Assembly: GCA_024742285.1 (NCBI GenBank)
Contig: JANSYR010000016.1
Location: 62,001 to 126,000 of the forward strand
From: a bacterium
GTDB taxonomy: Bacteria; Myxococcota_A; UBA9160; UBA4427
Length of the DNA stretch: 64,000 nt
Direction: 5' to 3'
Both the position numbers and the translations under genes were made by a program. This document shows positions 28,609 through 36,108 of this stretch, piece by piece (position 1 is the stretch's first letter; each line of letters starts with the position of its first letter). The notes under the pieces were generated by a model. That model was not told the origin of the DNA, searched no databases, and saw only the letters and a list, made by a program, of their open reading frames with translations.

Positions 28609-29415
28609 CTAGCGGCGGCGCCCTCCCCAGCCGAGCCCGACCAGACCGAGCCCCATCAGCAACGCGGTCCCCGGCTCCGGCACGATGTTGAGCGCACCGA
28701 CGGCGTCGAGATCGAGAACGCTGCTCGAGAAAGGCGTCGCATAGGGGTCATAGATCGGCCGACCCATCGAATCGAAGGTCGAGCCGTCTCCGACGACATC
28801 GGTGATCCGCACGAAACGAATCGCAGAGAGATCGACGACGCCGCCGATCACGAGCGGGTCGGCGAGGAGTTCTTCGAGATCGAACCCCGTGCCGGTGCCC
28901 GCGGCATGCCTGCCGGCGAGGTCTCGCACGTCCGTCGGGTCGATCGCGCTGAAGGGACCGACCGGGGCCGGCGTGAGGGATTCCGAGGCGAAGCGCGCGA
29001 AGTTCAGCCCGTCGGAGGATACGTCGACGAAACCGAGCTCCGCGAAGAGACCTCCCCCGGACTCGAATCCGTTCTCCCACACCGCGAAATCCGCCCCGGC
29101 ATCGTTCCTGAGCAGAATGTCGAACTCGAGTGTGATCGAGCCGCCGTCGCCCAGCGAGACCAGAGAACCGTCCGCGGAGCCTGTGGCGTGGGTATCGACG
29201 CCAAACGTCGCGAGCGGACCAGCGGGGTTGGCGATGTCCTGCGGACCGCGCGCGAAGTCCGATACGCCGGAGGCCCAGGCGACCACCGAGCCGGAATCGA
29301 CGCCCGACTCCGTGAAGGGACCGGCGAGTGCAGGGGCGGCCGACAGCACGAAGGACAAGGAAGCGAGAAGCGTCGCGACGACCGTCGTCACGATTTTCGA
29401 GCTGGATCGAAACAT
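28609..29415 (-). CDS. PEP-CTERM surface protein A, cobalamin-riboswitch controlled
   Basis: 268 aa. It has a signal peptide (residues about 8-30, ending APALA) and a C-terminal sorting signal [24 protein letters not shown] (PEP, hydrophobic helix, Arg cluster), which exosortase recognises. The mature domain carries LVSLGDGGSITLEFD, DFAVWENGFE, DPTDVRDLAGRHAAGTGTGFDL, IRFVRITDVVGDGST and YDPYATPF, and is a paralogue of the protein at 31686-32498. I know of no assigned activity; the domain looks like a beta-sandwich. I chose the ATG behind GGGAGAG. The gene is the only one after the minus-strand cobalamin riboswitch, so a role in B12 binding or capture is inferred from regulation. Confidence 0.85.
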   Translation of the reverse strand: MFRSSSKIVTTVVATLLASLSFVLSAAPALAGPFTESGVDSGSVVAWASGVSDFARGPQDIANPAGPLATFGVDTHATGSADGSLVSLGDGGSITLEFDILLRNDAGADFAVWENGFESGGGLFAELGFVDVSSDGLNFARFASESLTPAPVGPFSAIDPTDVRDLAGRHAAGTGTGFDLEELLADPLVIGGVVDLSAIRFVRITDVVGDGSTFDSMGRPIYDPYATPFSSSVLDLDAVGALNIVPEPGTALLMGLGLVGLGWGGRRR

Positions 29416-29455
29416 GGAGCTCTCCCGGGCGGCATGCGATCGCACCGCCCACAGT

Positions 29456-29475
29456 GCGGCGGATGCATCCGCCGC
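29456..29475 (-). promoter_or_regulatory. 20-bp perfect palindrome in the leader of PEP-CTERM gene A
   Basis: GCGGCGGATGCATCCGCCGC is fully self-complementary. It lies between the cobalamin aptamer and the start codon, 41-60 bp upstream of the ATG. It is a candidate expression platform (terminator or masking stem) or a protein operator. Confidence 0.5.
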
Positions 29476-29662
29476 TGGGGTTCGCTTCGTTTCAGCTCGA
29501 CATCGTGGGGACCGGGAGAAGGACGGGGGTTCGCGGGCCAGCCCGTCGATCGAAGGTCGTGTGTCGTCTCGAAGACGAGACACCCGCTTCTCGCGATCCA
29601 CGGGACCGAGCGAATCCGCCGGCCTGCCGCCGCTCCTCCTGACACCGAAGAAGAACGAAGCT

Positions 29663-29867
29663 CGAGACAGGCCGGTCTTCTGGCTCCCGGATCAACCCTT
29701 CGCGAAGCCTTCCCAACCCCATCGGGTCAGTGGCATGAATTCGCGTCGGTCCCCGGTTACAGCGACGGGCTCGCGCCGGAATTGCACCGGCTTCCCGCAG
29801 TCGACCGCCTCGTCTTTCGAAGCAGCCGACCGCCCCCAGCGAGATCTGCTGGAGGACACCTGACTCG
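29663..29867 (-). ncRNA. Cobalamin (B12) riboswitch, minus strand
   Basis: Read on minus, the conserved cobalamin aptamer elements occur in order. GAAGCCGGTGCAATTCCGGC is followed by GCCCGTCGCTGTAACCGGGG, the B12 box GCCACTG (29734-29728), GGGAAGG, and AGCCAGAAGACCGGCC near the 3' end. A closing P1 helix pairs CGAGTCAGG (29867-29859) with CCTGTCTCG (29671-29663) at 8 of 9 positions. It leads into PEP-CTERM gene A with a 247-nt spacer holding a 20-bp palindrome. Binding of adenosyl- or other cobalamin should switch the gene off. Confidence 0.93.
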
Positions 29868-29879
29868 TTATGTGCCGCC

Positions 29880-29909
29880 ACTATGACACGGGCCCCGTGC
29901 GACCGTCAA
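29880..29909 (-). promoter_or_regulatory. Promoter for the minus-strand riboswitch transcript
   Basis: On minus, TTGACG (29909-29904) is followed after 18 bp by CATAGT (29885-29880). The predicted start near 29872 is just 5' of the riboswitch P1 helix. The spacer contains the small palindrome CACGGGCCCCGTG. Confidence 0.5.
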
Positions 29910-29941
29910 CGAGACCGACGACACCGGCGCTCGGCTCGGCG

Positions 29942-29966
29942 CACTCGACCGATGACCGGTCGAGTG
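29942..29966. promoter_or_regulatory. Hairpin/operator between the two divergent promoters
   Basis: CACTCGACCG and CGGTCGAGTG form a perfect 10-bp inverted repeat with a 5-bp centre (ATGAC). It lies 33 bp from the minus promoter and about 100 bp from the plus promoter. This suggests a shared protein-binding site on top of riboswitch control. Confidence 0.45.
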
Positions 29967-30069
29967 TGCGAGACCCGGTTCGTTCGCACCGAGTCGCCCC
30001 ACGCAAGAGACGAGCGAAAGGGGCCCAGCGGAACGAGAGCGGCCTGTATGTCGGCGGAGCTCGCCGAAA

Positions 30070-30098
30070 TTGCAGCCCCCACCAGTGTGGGCTACGAA
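30070..30098 (+). promoter_or_regulatory. Promoter for the plus-strand riboswitch transcript
   Basis: TTGCAG (30070-30075), 17 bp, TACGAA (30093-30098). The boxes match the sigma-70 consensus at 3 of 6 each, but spacing is ideal. The predicted start near 30106 meets the 5' end of the riboswitch P1 helix. The spacer holds CCCAC, CAGT, GTGGG. Confidence 0.4.
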
Positions 30099-30109
30099 GC
30101 ACCGATACG

Positions 30110-30376
30110 ACGGTGAAGGGTGTCCCACGTTGGAGCGTCAAGTTGGCGACCGACGGGGGGCGGGCAGGACCTGATCCTGTTCACGGGAAGCCGGTGCAAA
30201 TCCGGCGCGAGCCCGTCGCTGTAACCGGGGACGAACTGCACAGGGGCGAAGCCCCCAGCCACTGGCCGAATCCGGCTCTCTGCACCACGCATGACGTGCG
30301 GCGCAGCGACCCGAGAAGAAGCTGGGAAGGCGTGCAGCTTCGGCTGATCCGGAAGCCAGAAGACCGACCCTTCATC
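30110..30376 (+). ncRNA. Cobalamin (B12) riboswitch, plus strand
   Basis: The aptamer elements are GAAGCCGGTGCAAATCCGGC (from 30188), GCCCGTCGCTGTAACCGGGG, the B12 box GCCACTGG (30258-30265), GCTGGGAAGG and AAGCCAGAAGACC (30353-30365). P1 pairs TGAAGGGT (30114-30121) with ACCCTTCA (30367-30374) perfectly. It is the mirror of the minus-strand riboswitch 240 bp away, with almost identical core sequence but a longer peripheral insert. It leads into the DUF4465 gene and so controls the whole plus-strand B12 unit. Confidence 0.95.
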
Positions 30377-30526
30377 GGTGCTGCGTCTCTCCGAAGCAGA
30401 GAGCGCAGGGCAAGACGGAATCGACGCACGATCGCGGACACCGCCGGGACGCGGGGACCGTGATCTCTTTCGTATCTGGAACGGGGCAGCCCGACTGCTC
30501 CACGGATCGCTCTGCGGGCGGCCCGT

Positions 30527-30544
30527 GGGGAGCGCGCGCTCCCC
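30527..30544 (+). promoter_or_regulatory. 18-bp palindrome in the leader of the plus-strand B12 unit
   Basis: GGGGAGCGCGCGCTCCCC is fully self-complementary and lies about 150 nt past the aptamer and 160 nt before the ATG at 30706. A weaker stem (CTGCG-TCTCT with AGAGA-GCGCAG) sits at about 30380-30412, right after the aptamer. Either could be the expression platform. The rest of 30377-30705 holds no supportable gene. Confidence 0.45.
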
Positions 30545-30705
30545 TCTCGATCCGACGCCGAATCTCGAACCTCCCCCTGCGAATTCGTGCTCCGAGGAGT
30601 GACTCCGGACGGAAACGTCCCGGGTCGGCATCACCGAACGCCGTCCTCGATCGGCCGGAAACCCCGGCCAGCGGTCCCCGAAGCGGGACTGCGAGGAGCA
30701 CTCTG

Positions 30706-31536
30706 ATGTTGATTCGGCTCTCGTTCTCACCTGCTCTCCGTAACTCGGCGGAGCGCACGCGTCGTCCCTTCGGCGCGGCGGCCCTCGTCGCCACGCTGGC
30801 CACCCTGACTTCGACACACGCCGCAGCGCTGACGGCCACCTTCGAGGATCTCGGCCTCGACCCGTCGCCGCCCGGCGAGTTCATCGATCCGCCGACCTCC
30901 GGCGGAAGCTTCGTCTCGGGCGGCGTGACCTTCCTCAACGATGGTGGCTTCGGCGGCTTCTCCGCCTCGACGACGTCGGACACGACGACCCCCGGCTTCA
31001 CCAACCAGTACAGCAACATCACGGGGGAAGGCGCGGGGGGTTCCTCGGCCTTCGGAATCGCCTCTGCGTTCTCGCCCGTCGAGCTCGCGTTCTCGACGCC
31101 CCAGACGGTGCTGACTGCGGAGTTCACCAACACCACCTACGCGGCGCTCTCGATGCTGAACGGCGACCAGTTCGCCAAGCAGTTCGGGGGACCGACCGGG
31201 GACGACGAGGACTTCTTCTTGCTCACGATCGAAGGACTCGACGGAATCGGCGGCGTCACCGGCGCGGTGGACTTCTATCTCGCGGACTATCGCTTCGCCG
31301 ACAACGCCCTCGACTACATCGTGGACGAGTGGACGACCGTCAGCCTCGACGTGCTCGGCCAGGTCAATGGCCTGCGCTTCAGCCTGACCGGCAGCGACGT
31401 CGGGGGCTTCGGGCTGAACACGCCCGCCTACTTCGCGATCGACGATCTGGTCACGGTGCCCGAACCGGGGACCGCGCTGCTCCTCGGTCTCGGCCTGGCG
31501 GGACTCGCGGGCCGCTCGCGGCGAGCCCGCGCCTAG
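30706..31536 (+). CDS. DUF4465 PEP-CTERM protein, candidate B12-binding surface protein
   Basis: 276 aa, starting behind GAGGAG. A signal peptide ends at THAAA. The mature region shows the DUF4465 pattern: ATFEDLGL near the start, [75 protein letters not shown] and [13 protein letters not shown]. The C-terminus [26 protein letters not shown] is a canonical PEP-CTERM exosortase signal. From memory, DUF4465 proteins occur in cobalamin-controlled loci of Bacteroidota, where a B12-binding surface lipoprotein family (BtuH) is described. Here the anchor is PEP-CTERM instead of lipid. As the first gene after the plus riboswitch, a B12-capture role is the best inference. Confidence 0.88.
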
Positions 31537-31561
31537 CTCGGGCGGGGCTCCTACGGCTCGA

Positions 31562-31589
31562 GCCCGGTCGCCCGTCACGGCGACCGGGC
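31562..31589 (+). terminator. Strong hairpin between DUF4465 and PEP-CTERM B genes
   Basis: GCCCGGTCGCC and GGCGACCGGGC form a perfect 11-bp stem with a 6-nt loop, 26 bp after the DUF4465 stop. No T-run follows. It may cause partial termination or protect the upstream mRNA, giving more of the first surface protein than of the receptor. Confidence 0.5.
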
Positions 31590-31685
31590 GAAAGCCCCGC
31601 GAGCGGACGCGGGTCTCGTCGAGACGATCCCCGTAACCGATCCCGGCTGGGACGTCCGGAAGCGACGTCCAGAGGAAACGAAACG

Positions 31686-32498
31686 ATGCTCGAAGGCTCC
31701 TTCCGGCGAGGACGCGCCGTCGGCGCGACTCTGCCGCTGCTCGCCCTGCTCGCCGCGCCGGCCGGCGCTGGCCCCTGGTCCGACCCGGGCCACCCCGACG
31801 ACTCGATGGTTGCCTGGGCGACCGCGGTCGAGGCCCTCGACCGCGGACCGCAGGACATCAACACGCCCGGTAGCCCCCTTGCCACCGCCGGCGCCGGCGC
31901 CAACTCCGTCGGCCCCGCAACGGGTGATCCGGGCGACACGGTCTCCCTCGGCGATGCCGGGACCATCACCCTGTCCTTCGATGAAGCCATCCACAACGGT
32001 CCCGGAGACGACTTCGCCGTCTTCGAGAACGGCTTCTTCGATCTCTTCGGTCTCTTTGCGGAATTCGCCTACGTCGAGGTCGCGAGCAACGGCATCGATT
32101 TCGCCGAGTTCGAGACCGATACGGTGAACACACTCCCGGTCGGAAGCTTCGACACGATCGACCCCACGGACTGGGTCGGCGTCGCCGGGCGGCATCCGGC
32201 GCGGACCGGGACGGGCTTCGATCTCGCCGACCTCGCCGGCGATCCCCTCGTACTCGCCGGCACCGTCGATCTGAACGACATCCGCTACGTGCGACTCACG
32301 GACGTGATCGGCGACGGCTCGACGACGGTGACGAGCGGCGGCCCCCTCTACGACCCCTACGCGACGCCCTTTCCCTCGAGCGGCTTCGACCTCGATGCGG
32401 TCGGCGTGATCCACGCGCCGGAGCCCGGATTCGCCGGTCTCCTCGGCGCGGGCGCCTTCGCCCTCGGCGTCGCTTCCGGCCGCCGGAGCCGCCGTTAG
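31686..32498 (+). CDS. PEP-CTERM surface protein B, paralogue of protein A
   Basis: 270 aa. The signal peptide ends at PAGAG. The mature domain aligns along its length with the divergent protein at 28609-29415. Shared blocks are [82 protein letters not shown] and DLDAVG. The C-terminus [26 protein letters not shown] is a PEP-CTERM signal with a somewhat weaker helix. It lies 8 bp upstream of the TonB-dependent receptor gene and so is co-expressed with it. Function is unknown; a partner of the receptor in B12 uptake is inferred from the operon. Confidence 0.85.
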
Positions 32499-32506
32499 GT
32501 CGGGCC

Positions 32507-34489
32507 ATGTGCGTGCGACGCCCGGACCGGATCGCGATCGCTCTCCTCGCACTTCTCTGGACCGCGACGCCCGCCGCCCTCGCAGCGGAGCGCGCGATCG
32601 GACCGGAGAAGGATCCCGTCGAGGAGATGATCGTCGTCGGGGAACAGCGGCCGGCACCGGACGTGCTGGCCGGCGCCACCACCAGCGTCCTCTCCGCCGA
32701 CGCGGGCCTGCTCGAAGGCGCGCGCATCGACGAGCTCCTGGCCGACGTGCCCGGCGTCCAGATCCGCAACTTCGGCGGCGCCGGAGAGCCCGTCGAGATC
32801 TCGATCCGCGGATCCCGGCCGCAGCAGGTCCCCGTCTTCCTGGACGGCGTCCGCGTCGAGTCGACGCTCACGAGCCGCACCGATCTCTCCGCCCTCTGTC
32901 TCGACGTCCTCGACGAGATCCAGGTCACGCGAGGCGCGGGCGCGGCGCGCGCCGGGAGCGGCGCGATCGGCGGGGTGGTGAATCTCGTCTCGCGACCGGC
33001 GCAGAAAGAGCCCGAGACGAAGCTCCGCTTCTCCGGCGGTCACTTCGAGACCTACGAGGGCAGCCTCCGCCACGCCCGCCGGATCGGCGACTGGGGCCTC
33101 TCTCTCGCCTACTGCGGGTTCGGAACCGAAGGCGACTTCGAGTACCAGCGTGCGTCGACGTCGACCGGCGGCGGCTCCAATCCGGTCGAGCGGCGCGTGA
33201 ACAACGATGCCGAGCGACACACGGGACTCGTGCGCGCCGAGCGCCAGTTCGGCCGCTTCGAGCTGGGCCTGACGCAGCTGACGACGCACCTGGAACGGGG
33301 CACGCCCGGCCAGGAGCTCAACCAGCGGCTCGAAGCCCGCGACGAGATCCTGACGCTCCTCTCGATCGCGCGGCTCGAGACGTCGCTCGAAGGCATGCCC
33401 GAAGGTCAGGCGGAGCTCCTCGTCGCCCACCAGCACCAACGCGACGACTTCGAGGACCCCGTCCCCCAGTTCGGCTTCGACGGTCTCGACGTCGAGACGA
33501 CCAGTGATTCGCTGACCCCCCGGCTGACGGTCTCCGGCGCCTTCGACGCCCTCGGCGCGGATCTCGACGCGAGCGTGCTCTTCGAGGGCCGCTTCGACAC
33601 GCGGGCGAGCAATGAGGCGAATCGTCGCTCTCGCGCCGGCGGCGCCGTCCGCGTGGAAGCCACGGCCCACTGGTTCGCGGATCGCCTCCGCGTCTCCCCC
33701 TCCGTCCGCGTCGAACGCTTCGAGGATCTCGACACGGAGTGGATCCCGGGACTCTTCGTCGAGGCCGAGGCGACGGATTGGCTGCTGCTGAAAGGCTCGG
33801 CGAGTCGCAGCTACCGGGCGCCCTCGTTCGGAGAGCTCTTCCTGCCCGACAAGGGCTTCGAGCGCGGCAACGAGAACCTCGACGCCGAGTCCGCCTGGAA
33901 TTTCGAGATCGGCGGCGTGCTCACCAGTCCCTTCGCCTCGCCGCTCCTCGACTTCGAGATCGAGGGGACGTACTTCGCCGGCGAGATCGACGACTCGATC
34001 GTGTTCACGCGAATCAGCCCCTTCACGAGCTCCTTCGTGAATACGGGCCGCGCGGAGACGCGGGGTCACGAGCTCTCGGTTCGCTGGCGACCGCACGAAT
34101 GGATCCGCGTGACTGCCGCCCGGACCGTGACGGACTCGAAGGACAAGGGTTCGGGTACCCAGCTGCCCGGGATCGCACGCTCCCAGATCGACGCCCGCCT
34201 GGAGCTCGGCCCCCGCGACCGGTTCAAGCTGCTGGGCGAGCTCCAGTACACGGGCGACATCAACACCTCGCCGGGCGGCCTCGCGAAGCTCGACTCCCGC
34301 GTGCTCTACGATGCGAGCGCCAGCGTCGATCTCGCCCGGATCGAGGCGATTCCGCTGCCCGAGCGGCTGCGCTCGCTCTGGCTCGTCGTCCGCGGTCGGA
34401 ACCTCGGCAACGTCGCCACCCGCGATGCCGCGTTCTTCCCTCGTCCGGGCCGAAACGTGACGATCTCCATCGAAGGAGTGCTCCGATGA
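32507..34489 (+). CDS. btuB: TonB-dependent receptor, BtuB-type cobalamin transporter
   Basis: 660 aa outer-membrane receptor. A signal peptide (ending LAA near residue 26) is followed by a TonB-box-like EEMIVVGE. The plug domain has ARIDELLADVPGVQIRNFGGAGEPVEISIRGSRPQQVPVFLDGVRV and EIQVTRGAGAARAGSGAIGGVVNLVSR. The 22-strand barrel ends in a standard C-terminal strand (RNVTISIEGVLR). The length fits BtuB (about 600) rather than large SusC-type receptors. The cobalamin assignment rests on the riboswitch at the head of the unit; sequence alone says only small-ligand TonB receptor. It overlaps the following lipoprotein gene by ATGA. No btuF, btuC or btuD is in the window. Confidence 0.88.
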   Translation: MCVRRPDRIAIALLALLWTATPAALAAERAIGPEKDPVEEMIVVGEQRPAPDVLAGATTSVLSADAGLLEGARIDELLADVPGVQIRNFGGAGEPVEISIRGSRPQQVPVFLDGVRVESTLTSRTDLSALCLDVLDEIQVTRGAGAARAGSGAIGGVVNLVSRPAQKEPETKLRFSGGHFETYEGSLRHARRIGDWGLSLAYCGFGTEGDFEYQRASTSTGGGSNPVERRVNNDAERHTGLVRAERQFGRFELGLTQLTTHLERGTPGQELNQRLEARDEILTLLSIARLETSLEGMPEGQAELLVAHQHQRDDFEDPVPQFGFDGLDVETTSDSLTPRLTVSGAFDALGADLDASVLFEGRFDTRASNEANRRSRAGGAVRVEATAHWFADRLRVSPSVRVERFEDLDTEWIPGLFVEAEATDWLLLKGSASRSYRAPSFGELFLPDKGFERGNENLDAESAWNFEIGGVLTSPFASPLLDFEIEGTYFAGEIDDSIVFTRISPFTSSFVNTGRAETRGHELSVRWRPHEWIRVTAARTVTDSKDKGSGTQLPGIARSQIDARLELGPRDRFKLLGELQYTGDINTSPGGLAKLDSRVLYDASASVDLARIEAIPLPERLRSLWLVVRGRNLGNVATRDAAFFPRPGRNVTISIEGVLR

Positions 34490-36108
34490 GCCGAGGACAC
34501 CGCCTCGCCGCCCTGCTCGTCTGGATCGGCCTCTGCGGCTGTCCCGCCGGAGATGGCACCGACGGACCCACGCCCATCGTTCGCATCTCTTCCACGCCCG
34601 ACTGCCGGGTGATCGGGGGTGGCTTTCCCTCGGGCTTCGCGGCCCTGCCGGGCACCCTCGATCAGGCCGCCGTCGTGAAATTCGGAATTGGAGAGCTGGC
34701 CGTGATCGGCCTCGACCTCGACGGCGAGCCGCCGACGCCGCTGGTCGCGACGGCGCCGGCGTTGCCGGAGGTCGCCGGGCGCTGCCGCACGGGCCTGTTC
34801 GTCGACAGTGACAGCAACGGCATCGCCGACCGGGACGACAACGACTTGCTCGGACTCCGAAACGGATTCCCGTGCGGCCTCGATCCACAGCCGGGCAACA
34901 TCGAAGCGCTGGCTTCGGACCTCGTCGCCGTCACCACGTCGGGCTACGAGCAGATCCTCTTCTTCGACCCGCGCGATGGAGAGCTCCGGGCCGTGCAACT
35001 CGATCCTCCCCCGGCCGGCCCGGGCTTCGATCCGGCCGACTGGCGCCTCTGGCCCGCAGCGGGCGTACGCCCCTTCCAGACCGGCCTCTCGACCTGGGTC
35101 TGCGTCTACGGAGCGGGAATCCTCGACTCCGACGGCGATCCCGTCGGCGCCGATCCCCTCTGCGACCCCGGGCGGGACGGATTCCTCACTTCGTTCACGT
35201 CGGACGTCCTCCGTTCGAACGGCCGACTCTTCGTCGCGACCTCGAACCTGCTCCCGATTCGCGGGAGCCGATTCGCACCCGGCACCGTCCTCGCCTTCGA
35301 CTTCGACGAGAGCGTCTCTCCGCCACGGGCCGCGCCCGTCGCGGCCGACGCCGTCCGACCGACCACCGGGTACAATCCGACCTCGCTCGCCGCGTACACC
35401 ACGCCGTCCGGACGCGAGCTCGTCCTGGTCGGGGTGACCGGCGCCTTGACCCGCGACGGCGACCTCGTGACGCCATCGGCGATCGACGTGCTCGACGCGA
35501 CGAGCCTCGACCTGATCGCGACGATTCCGCTCGGCTTCGCCGGCCTGGGGTTCGACGGGTTCGCGATCGACGCGACGAACCGGATCGCGGTGATCGGTGC
35601 GGTGGCGAACCGTGCGCTCTACGCAATCGACCTCGCGGCACTCGACGACCCGAGCCTCGGACTCGGGCCGGAGACCCTGCCGATCGTGCTCGACGGCATG
35701 ACCCCGGGCTTTCCGGACGCGCGCGTCTACGACGCCGCGCGTCCATTCGAGCTCCCGAAGCGAGCCGACGGTCCGCTCGACAGCGTCTGCGTCGCGCAGA
35801 CGTCCGCCGCGATCCGGGACGACAACGGCTTCGTCGCCGCCACGGAATACTGCGACGGGACGATCACGCGCATCGATCTGTCGCTGCCGCTCGCGCGCAC
35901 GACACCCCTCGATCCCGATACGACGCTCCGCGTCGATACGATCTTCGAGGCGCTGGCCCCCGGCGACGCGGTCTTCGAGCCGCGGTTCCCGGGCGATGTC
36001 CTCATTCGCCCCGGAACGCCCGGGATCGACTACGACGGTCCCGACGTCCACTTCACGTTCGGCGACCCGGAAGGCGGGGTCTGCGGCCTCCGGATCGACG
36101 CGATCTGA
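34486..36108 (+). CDS. Large cysteine-rich lipoprotein coupled to btuB, possible beta-propeller
   Basis: 540 aa. The signal peptide ends in a lipobox-like LCGC with Cys19, so the protein should be lipid-anchored. The mature part is beta-rich, with repeated strand-turn units such as DLVAVTTSGYEQILFFDPRDGELRAVQLD, NGRLFVATSNLLPI, RELVLVGVTGALT and NRIAVIGAVANRALYAIDLAAL, which look like propeller blades. Eight further Cys residues would allow four disulfides. A calcium-loop-like DSDSNGIADRDDND lies at about 107-120. I do not recognise a named family. Because it overlaps btuB by ATGA and belongs to a B12-riboswitch unit, it may play the part of the BtuG propeller lipoprotein of Bacteroidota. Confidence 0.75.
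   Translation: MSRGHRLAALLVWIGLCGCPAGDGTDGPTPIVRISSTPDCRVIGGGFPSGFAALPGTLDQAAVVKFGIGELAVIGLDLDGEPPTPLVATAPALPEVAGRCRTGLFVDSDSNGIADRDDNDLLGLRNGFPCGLDPQPGNIEALASDLVAVTTSGYEQILFFDPRDGELRAVQLDPPPAGPGFDPADWRLWPAAGVRPFQTGLSTWVCVYGAGILDSDGDPVGADPLCDPGRDGFLTSFTSDVLRSNGRLFVATSNLLPIRGSRFAPGTVLAFDFDESVSPPRAAPVAADAVRPTTGYNPTSLAAYTTPSGRELVLVGVTGALTRDGDLVTPSAIDVLDATSLDLIATIPLGFAGLGFDGFAIDATNRIAVIGAVANRALYAIDLAALDDPSLGLGPETLPIVLDGMTPGFPDARVYDAARPFELPKRADGPLDSVCVAQTSAAIRDDNGFVAATEYCDGTITRIDLSLPLARTTPLDPDTTLRVDTIFEALAPGDAVFEPRFPGDVLIRPGTPGIDYDGPDVHFTFGDPEGGVCGLRIDAI

Follow-up and report, generated by a model that had tools for sequence, protein, structure and literature searches.

The closest described systems to the locus analyzed here are the vitamin B12 (B12) surface proteins of Bacteroides, in which a relay runs from BtuJ and BtuH to BtuG and BtuB. 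BtuJ belongs to the DUF4465 family, whose members are experimentally proven B12 binders (PMC13398666, PMC12751083). Eight divergent members bind B12, and in BtuJ1 the tyrosines singled out as key to B12 binding are Tyr146 and Tyr245 (PMC13398666). In BtuH2, Asn399 contacts the B12 phosphate (PMC8941943), and in B. thetaiotaomicron BtuG1 (8BLW_B), residues 387–476 form the start of a C-terminal BtuH domain (PMC10404256). The PEP-CTERM domain, IPR013424 (PMC4870267), has been counted in 88 of 824 DUF4465 proteins (Juodeikis et al. 2025, PMC12751083), and both the B12 binding of DUF4465 and its co-occurrence with PEP-CTERM are already published. A first-pass annotation of the locus had regarded B12 capture by PEP-CTERM proteins as undescribed. 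The published count qualifies this claim; what stands is that full-text searches of open-licence papers found no description of a locus joining PEP-CTERM or exosortase with cobalamin, B12, or a riboswitch.

The window, the whole 64 kb stretch of DNA that was analyzed, has 69% GC and comes from contig 16; the genome measures 6.55 Mb. Among the best 80 kept of at least 561 relatives, the nearest relatives of this genome are records labelled Myxococcota or Deltaproteobacteria. The window contains what can be read with good confidence as a B12-repressed cobamide-scavenging locus, in which exosortase-sorted capture proteins would feed a BtuB-like receptor accompanied by a propeller lipoprotein. Five genes, termed P1 to P5, make up the locus (Table 1). 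On the + strand, a riboswitch is followed by P2 (DUF4465), P3, P4 (TonB receptor), and P5 (lipoprotein), while P1 stands alone on the − strand behind its own riboswitch. The flanking genes, a fructosamine-kinase family gene and a TrmH-like rRNA methylase gene, are both unrelated. All five genes are kept in related genomes, indicating that the locus is not a chance assembly. The five-gene content given in the first-pass annotation is correct, but the placement is not: the gene at 28609 is one of the paralogues, and the DUF4465 gene lies at 30706. The two divergent cobalamin riboswitches it described are confirmed by the RF00174 covariance model; rather than flanking all five genes, the pair occupies, back to back, the interval that separates P1 (−) from P2–P5 (+).

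Table 1. Features of the locus, in window coordinates.
Feature	Position	Strand	Evidence
P1, BtuH-like secreted protein, 268 aa	28609..29415	−	PF07589 tail; signal peptide by eye
PEP-CTERM sorting signal of P1	28612..28683	−	PF07589 genome scan, E 7e-6
Cobalamin riboswitch ahead of P1	29653..29848	−	RF00174, 106.9 bits
Sigma-70-like promoter match upstream of P1 riboswitch	29880..29909	−	Consensus match only; 0.2 expected by chance
Cobalamin riboswitch ahead of P2–P5	30141..30386	+	RF00174, 77.9 bits
P2, DUF4465 (BtuJ-type) protein with PEP-CTERM, 276 aa	30706..31536	+	PF14717, E 6.6e-48
PEP-CTERM sorting signal of P2	31453..31524	+	Best PEP-CTERM match of the genome, 34.3 bits
P3, BtuH-like secreted protein, 270 aa	31686..32498	+	AF2 model, structure search, hhalign
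PEP-CTERM-like tail of P3	32415..32495	+	By eye: APEPG, hydrophobic stretch, RRSRR
P4, TonB-dependent receptor, BtuB-like	32507..34489	+	PF07715 and PF00593
P5, lipoprotein, predicted beta-propeller, 540 aa	34486..36108	+	AF2 model, Foldseek

Both riboswitches score above the RF00174 gathering score of 31.5, and no further RF00174 riboswitch is found in the 6.55 Mb genome. Neither leader contains a clear terminator, and a terminator-based mechanism is unsupported, terminator-like sites being no more frequent than in shuffled sequence. Other genomes of the class also have divergent pairs of cobalamin riboswitches separated by a few hundred bases (G002:C217, G004:C230, G010:C60, and G011:C18), so the back-to-back layout is not unique to the window. 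About 50 genomes of the class possess cobalamin riboswitches without a P3 homologue.

P2 is a clear member of the DUF4465 family, matching PF14717 with 163.8 bits against a cut-off of 25 and aligning to the B12-bound structures 9HMU (E 7.6e-21), 9FCT, and 9I2L. It contains both NTTYAALS, in the DE helix, and NTPAYF, in the HI loop, and the alignment places the tyrosines of NTTY and NTPAY at Tyr146 and Tyr245 of BtuJ1 (9FCT numbering). Since divergent family members bind B12, P2 very probably does so too, judging from its sequence. The crystallised B12-binding DUF4465 construct D5EK51 (9HMU) ends at VPE, exactly where the PEP-CTERM of P2 begins, suggesting that the parent of this construct is probably an exosortase-sorted PEP-CTERM protein; the paper describing 9HMU does not mention a PEP-CTERM parent (PMC13398666).

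P1 and P3 are 55% identical, in agreement with their earlier description as paralogous PEP-CTERM proteins, which did not recognize their membership of the BtuH superfamily. In single-sequence searches, P3 has no Pfam, NCBIfam, or PDB match above threshold, and the only Pfam match of P1 is its PEP-CTERM tail. A family profile built from 23 and then 73 members matches a single PDB chain, 8BLW_B, over residues 387–476, with the E-value going from 0.0093 to 0.0015. Profile–profile comparison by hhalign with 29 BtuH sequences, collected by a search of Bacteroidales genomes, gives a probability of 96% (E 4.8e-9), with negative controls at 0.3% (DUF4465) and 0.1%. The DUF4465 value leads to rejection of the idea that P1 and P3 are divergent DUF4465 proteins. 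When the H-domain segment of 8BLW was searched in 24 Bacteroidota genomes, one weak match was obtained, itself inside a P3-family gene.

Structure prediction, proposed in the first-pass annotation for all five proteins, gives a BtuH-like model for P3 and a propeller for P5. The P3 domain is predicted by AF2 at pLDDT 97, and a Foldseek search of the whole PDB returns 8BLW, BtuG1 with its BtuH domain, as the top match (E 1e-5, probability 1.00). BtuH2 (7BIZ) is listed with a probability of 0.97–0.99. The TM score is about 0.48, indicating a distant relationship. CBM32/F5-8C carbohydrate-binding domains form the secondary structural matches. By profile and predicted fold, P1 and P3 thus prove to be distant BtuH-superfamily relatives.

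The residues aligned with BtuH suggest B12 binding by P1 and P3. N88 of P3 aligns with Asn399 of BtuH2 and is invariant in all 73 family sequences, and F90, aligned with Phe401, is kept in 66 of the 73, the two BtuH2 residues being contacts of the nucleotide loop; P1 has conserved equivalents of N88, F90, and D30. (By PDB chain numbering, Gln333 and Asn399 of BtuH2 are chain positions 233 and 299.) The corrin contacts of BtuH2, His476, Tyr510, Trp511, and Trp577, fall within stretches that are missing from P1 and P3 or that do not align, and BtuH-specific regions are absent from the shorter P1/P3 domain. P1 and P3 may therefore bind B12 differently or not at all.

P4 matches the TonB plug (PF07715) and barrel (PF00593). 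Among PDB chains, those of E. coli BtuB come closest to it (E 3.5e-16). The B12 receptor model TIGR01779 gives E 9e-30, with 103.7 bits against a cut-off of 599.7, and NF007926 gives 80.5 bits against 836. Both scores lie below these equivalog thresholds, and P4 scores equally to siderophore and haem receptor models, all below cut-off. P4 is therefore likely BtuB-type, without being certified as such by sequence alone; of the earlier assignment, the TonB receptor stands firmly and the BtuB type carries this qualification. P5, described earlier as a lipoprotein coupled to the receptor, bears out that description: its start codon overlaps the P4 stop (ATGA), predicting translational coupling, and a lipobox-like LCGC is seen by eye. 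In many P5 homologues the lipobox is followed by a shared Cys-x-G-(D/S)-G stretch, a possible signal for the export of lipoproteins to the surface in this lineage.

The fold of P5 had gone unnoticed. Its AF2 model is a beta-propeller (pLDDT 85.5). YncE is the first Foldseek match of this model, and BtuG3 (8OKV) appears at E 6.5e-6 alongside numerous other propellers. Propeller folds are common. P5 has no Pfam match and no PDB sequence match, and hhalign against 18 BtuG-type DUF5074-like proteins gives 13.4% over one blade, so that homology of P5 to BtuG is unsupported at the sequence level. P5 shares only layout and fold with BtuG and is likened to it on these grounds, membership of the family aside.

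The genome has four PF09721 exosortase loci, each scoring above the cut-off (best E 2.4e-65), and a PF07589 scan of it yields about 55 PEP-CTERM matches. To our knowledge, no function has been established for most PEP-CTERM proteins. PEP-CTERM signals had been assigned to all three accessory proteins of the locus. This holds above the Pfam cut-off for P1 (25.4 bits against 20.7) and P2, whereas the P3 tail is seen by eye and is unrecognized by PF07589 and TIGR02595.

Of 91 genomes of the class to which the genome belongs, 24 contain strong P3 homologues, 25 genes in total when P3 and P1 themselves are counted. The first-pass annotation had named homologues lying mostly outside B12-controlled loci as evidence against capture, and the opposite is found: RF00174 lies immediately upstream of 24 of the 25. 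Most neighborhoods in the class read riboswitch–P3–P2–P4–P5; some have P2 before P3, as in the window, and some are without P2. In nine class genomes (loci L040, L041, L042, L043, L044, L049, L051, L056, and L057), P3 and DUF4465 are fused into one open reading frame, about 530 aa long, that ends in a single PEP-CTERM. At six class loci, P3 occurs without a DUF4465 detected in the sequence examined around them.

A scan of 84,980 species genomes yields at least 561 P3 relatives, of which the best 80, biased towards close relatives, were kept; the 64 loci analyzed outside the class are those of the 80 that remain once duplicates of class genomes are set aside. A purpose-built covariance model detects a cobalamin riboswitch in 47 of the 64, and each of its 50 matches has the same strand as the P3-type gene. 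Rfam confirms seven of seven spot-checked loci, weak matches included, and adds four, for at least 51 of 64 among these best relatives. Of the 13 remaining loci, ten have less than 2.7 kb of upstream contig. Within the same sample of the best 80 of at least 561, DUF4465 is present in 31 of the 64 loci, and a BtuG-family DUF5074-like propeller gene, Pfam-checked in one case, in 19 Bacteroidota loci. Fusions of P3 and DUF4465 outside the class occur in Planctomycetaceae (L080) and, with a T9SS tail, in Flavobacteriales (L099). C-terminal signals of P3-family proteins are of the T9SS type in 21–22 of 74 and PEP-CTERM in 19 of 74. Two loci illustrate this range: Methyloversatilis (L109) has a riboswitch, a P3-type and a DUF4465 protein, each with PEP-CTERM, and a TonB receptor, and Flavobacterium circumlabens (L120) has a riboswitch, a TonB receptor, a DUF5074 (BtuG family) protein, and a P3-type protein with a T9SS tail. 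Other cultured relatives that have such a locus are a second Methyloversatilis (L135), Paludisphaera soli (L115), and Aquisphaera insulae (L110).

The genome encodes the B12-dependent methionine synthase MetH and lacks the corrin-ring marker CbiC, consistent with reliance on imported cobamide. BtuCDF genes are absent from the locus, and two FecCD permeases elsewhere in the genome are candidates for the inner-membrane step. A separate cluster (L146, G000:C3:400001-412000) contains a TonB receptor, a periplasmic binding protein, a FecCD permease, and an ATPase, and ExbB-like and ExbD-like genes and a PEP-CTERM protein are also encoded there; it has no cobalamin riboswitch and is a candidate haem or B12 ABC-type system.

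Under B12 scarcity, as RF00174 biology would suggest, both riboswitches would be ligand-free and allow expression. P1, P2, and P3 would then be secreted, and exosortase would direct them to the outer surface or the extracellular matrix, where they would trap cobamide outside the cell. The cobamide would pass to BtuB-like P4, capped by the propeller lipoprotein P5, in a hand-off modeled on the Bacteroides relay. B12 binding by P1, P3, P4, and P5, the surface location, the direction of the hand-off, and the regulation are extrapolated from the protein families and by analogy. The capture role put forward in the first-pass annotation is well supported by homology and context, with the BtuH homology of P1 and P3, the DUF4465 tyrosines of P2, the linkage to riboswitches, the adjacency or fusion to DUF4465, and the sorting signals all pointing to it.

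It is unlikely, though worth weighing, that P2 alone captures B12 and that P1 and P3 are BtuH-fold structural or docking partners that do not bind it, linking P2, for example, to the receptor or to matrix polysaccharide. Most corrin-ring ligands of BtuH2 are unconserved or unalignable in P1 and P3, P3 is often an extra domain fused to DUF4465, and its secondary structural matches are carbohydrate-binding domains, all of which would fit such a division of labor. The near-invariant equivalents of Asn399 and Phe401 argue against it, as does the occurrence of this protein type apart from DUF4465, with P1 alone under its own riboswitch and six P3 loci in the class where DUF4465 was undetected in the sequence examined, suggesting that P1 and P3 do not need P2. 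A far less probable alternative, on which B12 is only the regulatory signal and the locus imports another ligand such as a different corrinoid, haem, or a cobalt complex, draws on the equal scores of P4 to siderophore, haem, and B12 receptor models, all below cut-off; it has to contend with two independent domains of B12-binding families and two cobalamin riboswitches in one locus, and with a riboswitch linkage conserved over phyla.

How capture would work is a more evenly poised question. The PEP-CTERM proteins being released or matrix-bound B12 traps, comparable to siderophores, rather than receptor-docked partners is a possibility rated somewhat below even. BtuJ on vesicles delivers B12 in B. 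thetaiotaomicron (PMC12751083), PEP-CTERM and exosortase have been tied to exopolysaccharide export (Haft 2006, as cited in PMC12530212), and the homologues bear secretion-type tails, PEP-CTERM or T9SS. The tight operon with the receptor fits docking too, and trapping and docking are not exclusive. Capture by all three sorted proteins remains the preferred reading, and a broader proposal extending it stands at even odds: P1 and P3 would represent a multi-phylum BtuH branch forming, with DUF4465, a modular B12 trap whose anchor, be it lipoprotein, T9SS, or exosortase, is swapped by host. If so, exosortase substrates of PEP-CTERM bacteria would have a specific nutrient-capture function: they would retain B12 at the cell surface or within the exopolysaccharide matrix and deliver it to BtuB.

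Judging from the searches of open-licence full texts, the BtuH-superfamily assignment of P1 and P3, the cross-phylum riboswitch linkage, the DUF4465 fusion, and a Bacteroides-like B12 surface system in complete PEP-CTERM form are new. The locus offers a defined, testable nutrient role for PEP-CTERM proteins and would extend B12 surface capture from gut Bacteroides to environmental Myxococcota, Planctomycetota, Verrucomicrobiota, and Betaproteobacteria. The previously unnamed P1/P3 family, which has no Pfam model, gains a likely function. From the fusions, it would seem that the BtuH-like and the BtuJ-like domain act together as one capture unit.

In comparison with known families, P2 is a full member of DUF4465 (IPR027828, BtuJ; 9FCT, 9I2L, and 9HMU), sharing the NTTY and NTPAY tyrosines. 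What sets it apart is its PEP-CTERM anchoring and a gene that adjoins, or in relatives fuses with, that of a BtuH-like domain. P1 and P3 resemble BtuH (7BIZ and the H-domain of 8BLW BtuG1) in fold, profile, the Asn399 and Phe401 positions, and the riboswitch and BtuB context. They differ in the missing or unalignable His476, Tyr510, Trp511, and Trp577, in a diverged domain of about 218 aa compared with about 270 aa in BtuH, and in belonging to a family found in several phyla, with C-terminal signals of the PEP-CTERM or T9SS type. The Leptospira lipoprotein family NF033170 (LIC_13355, function unknown) is weakly matched by 39 of 74 P3-family members (best 7.7e-7), with P1 and P3 of the window falling far below its cut-off of 120 bits. 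The LIC_13355 lipoprotein may itself be a distant BtuH-like protein.

The BtuB–BtuG/BtuH/BtuJ loci 1–3 of B. thetaiotaomicron share with this locus the cobalamin riboswitch control, a TonB receptor with an adjacent propeller lipoprotein, and accessory proteins of the DUF4465 (BtuJ) and BtuH-domain types. The present locus belongs to a Myxococcota-type lineage rather than Bacteroidota, is without BtuCDF, and encodes a 540 aa lipoprotein, P5, that shows no sequence homology to BtuG. Its accessory proteins carry PEP-CTERM (exosortase) tails where those of B. thetaiotaomicron carry a lipobox.
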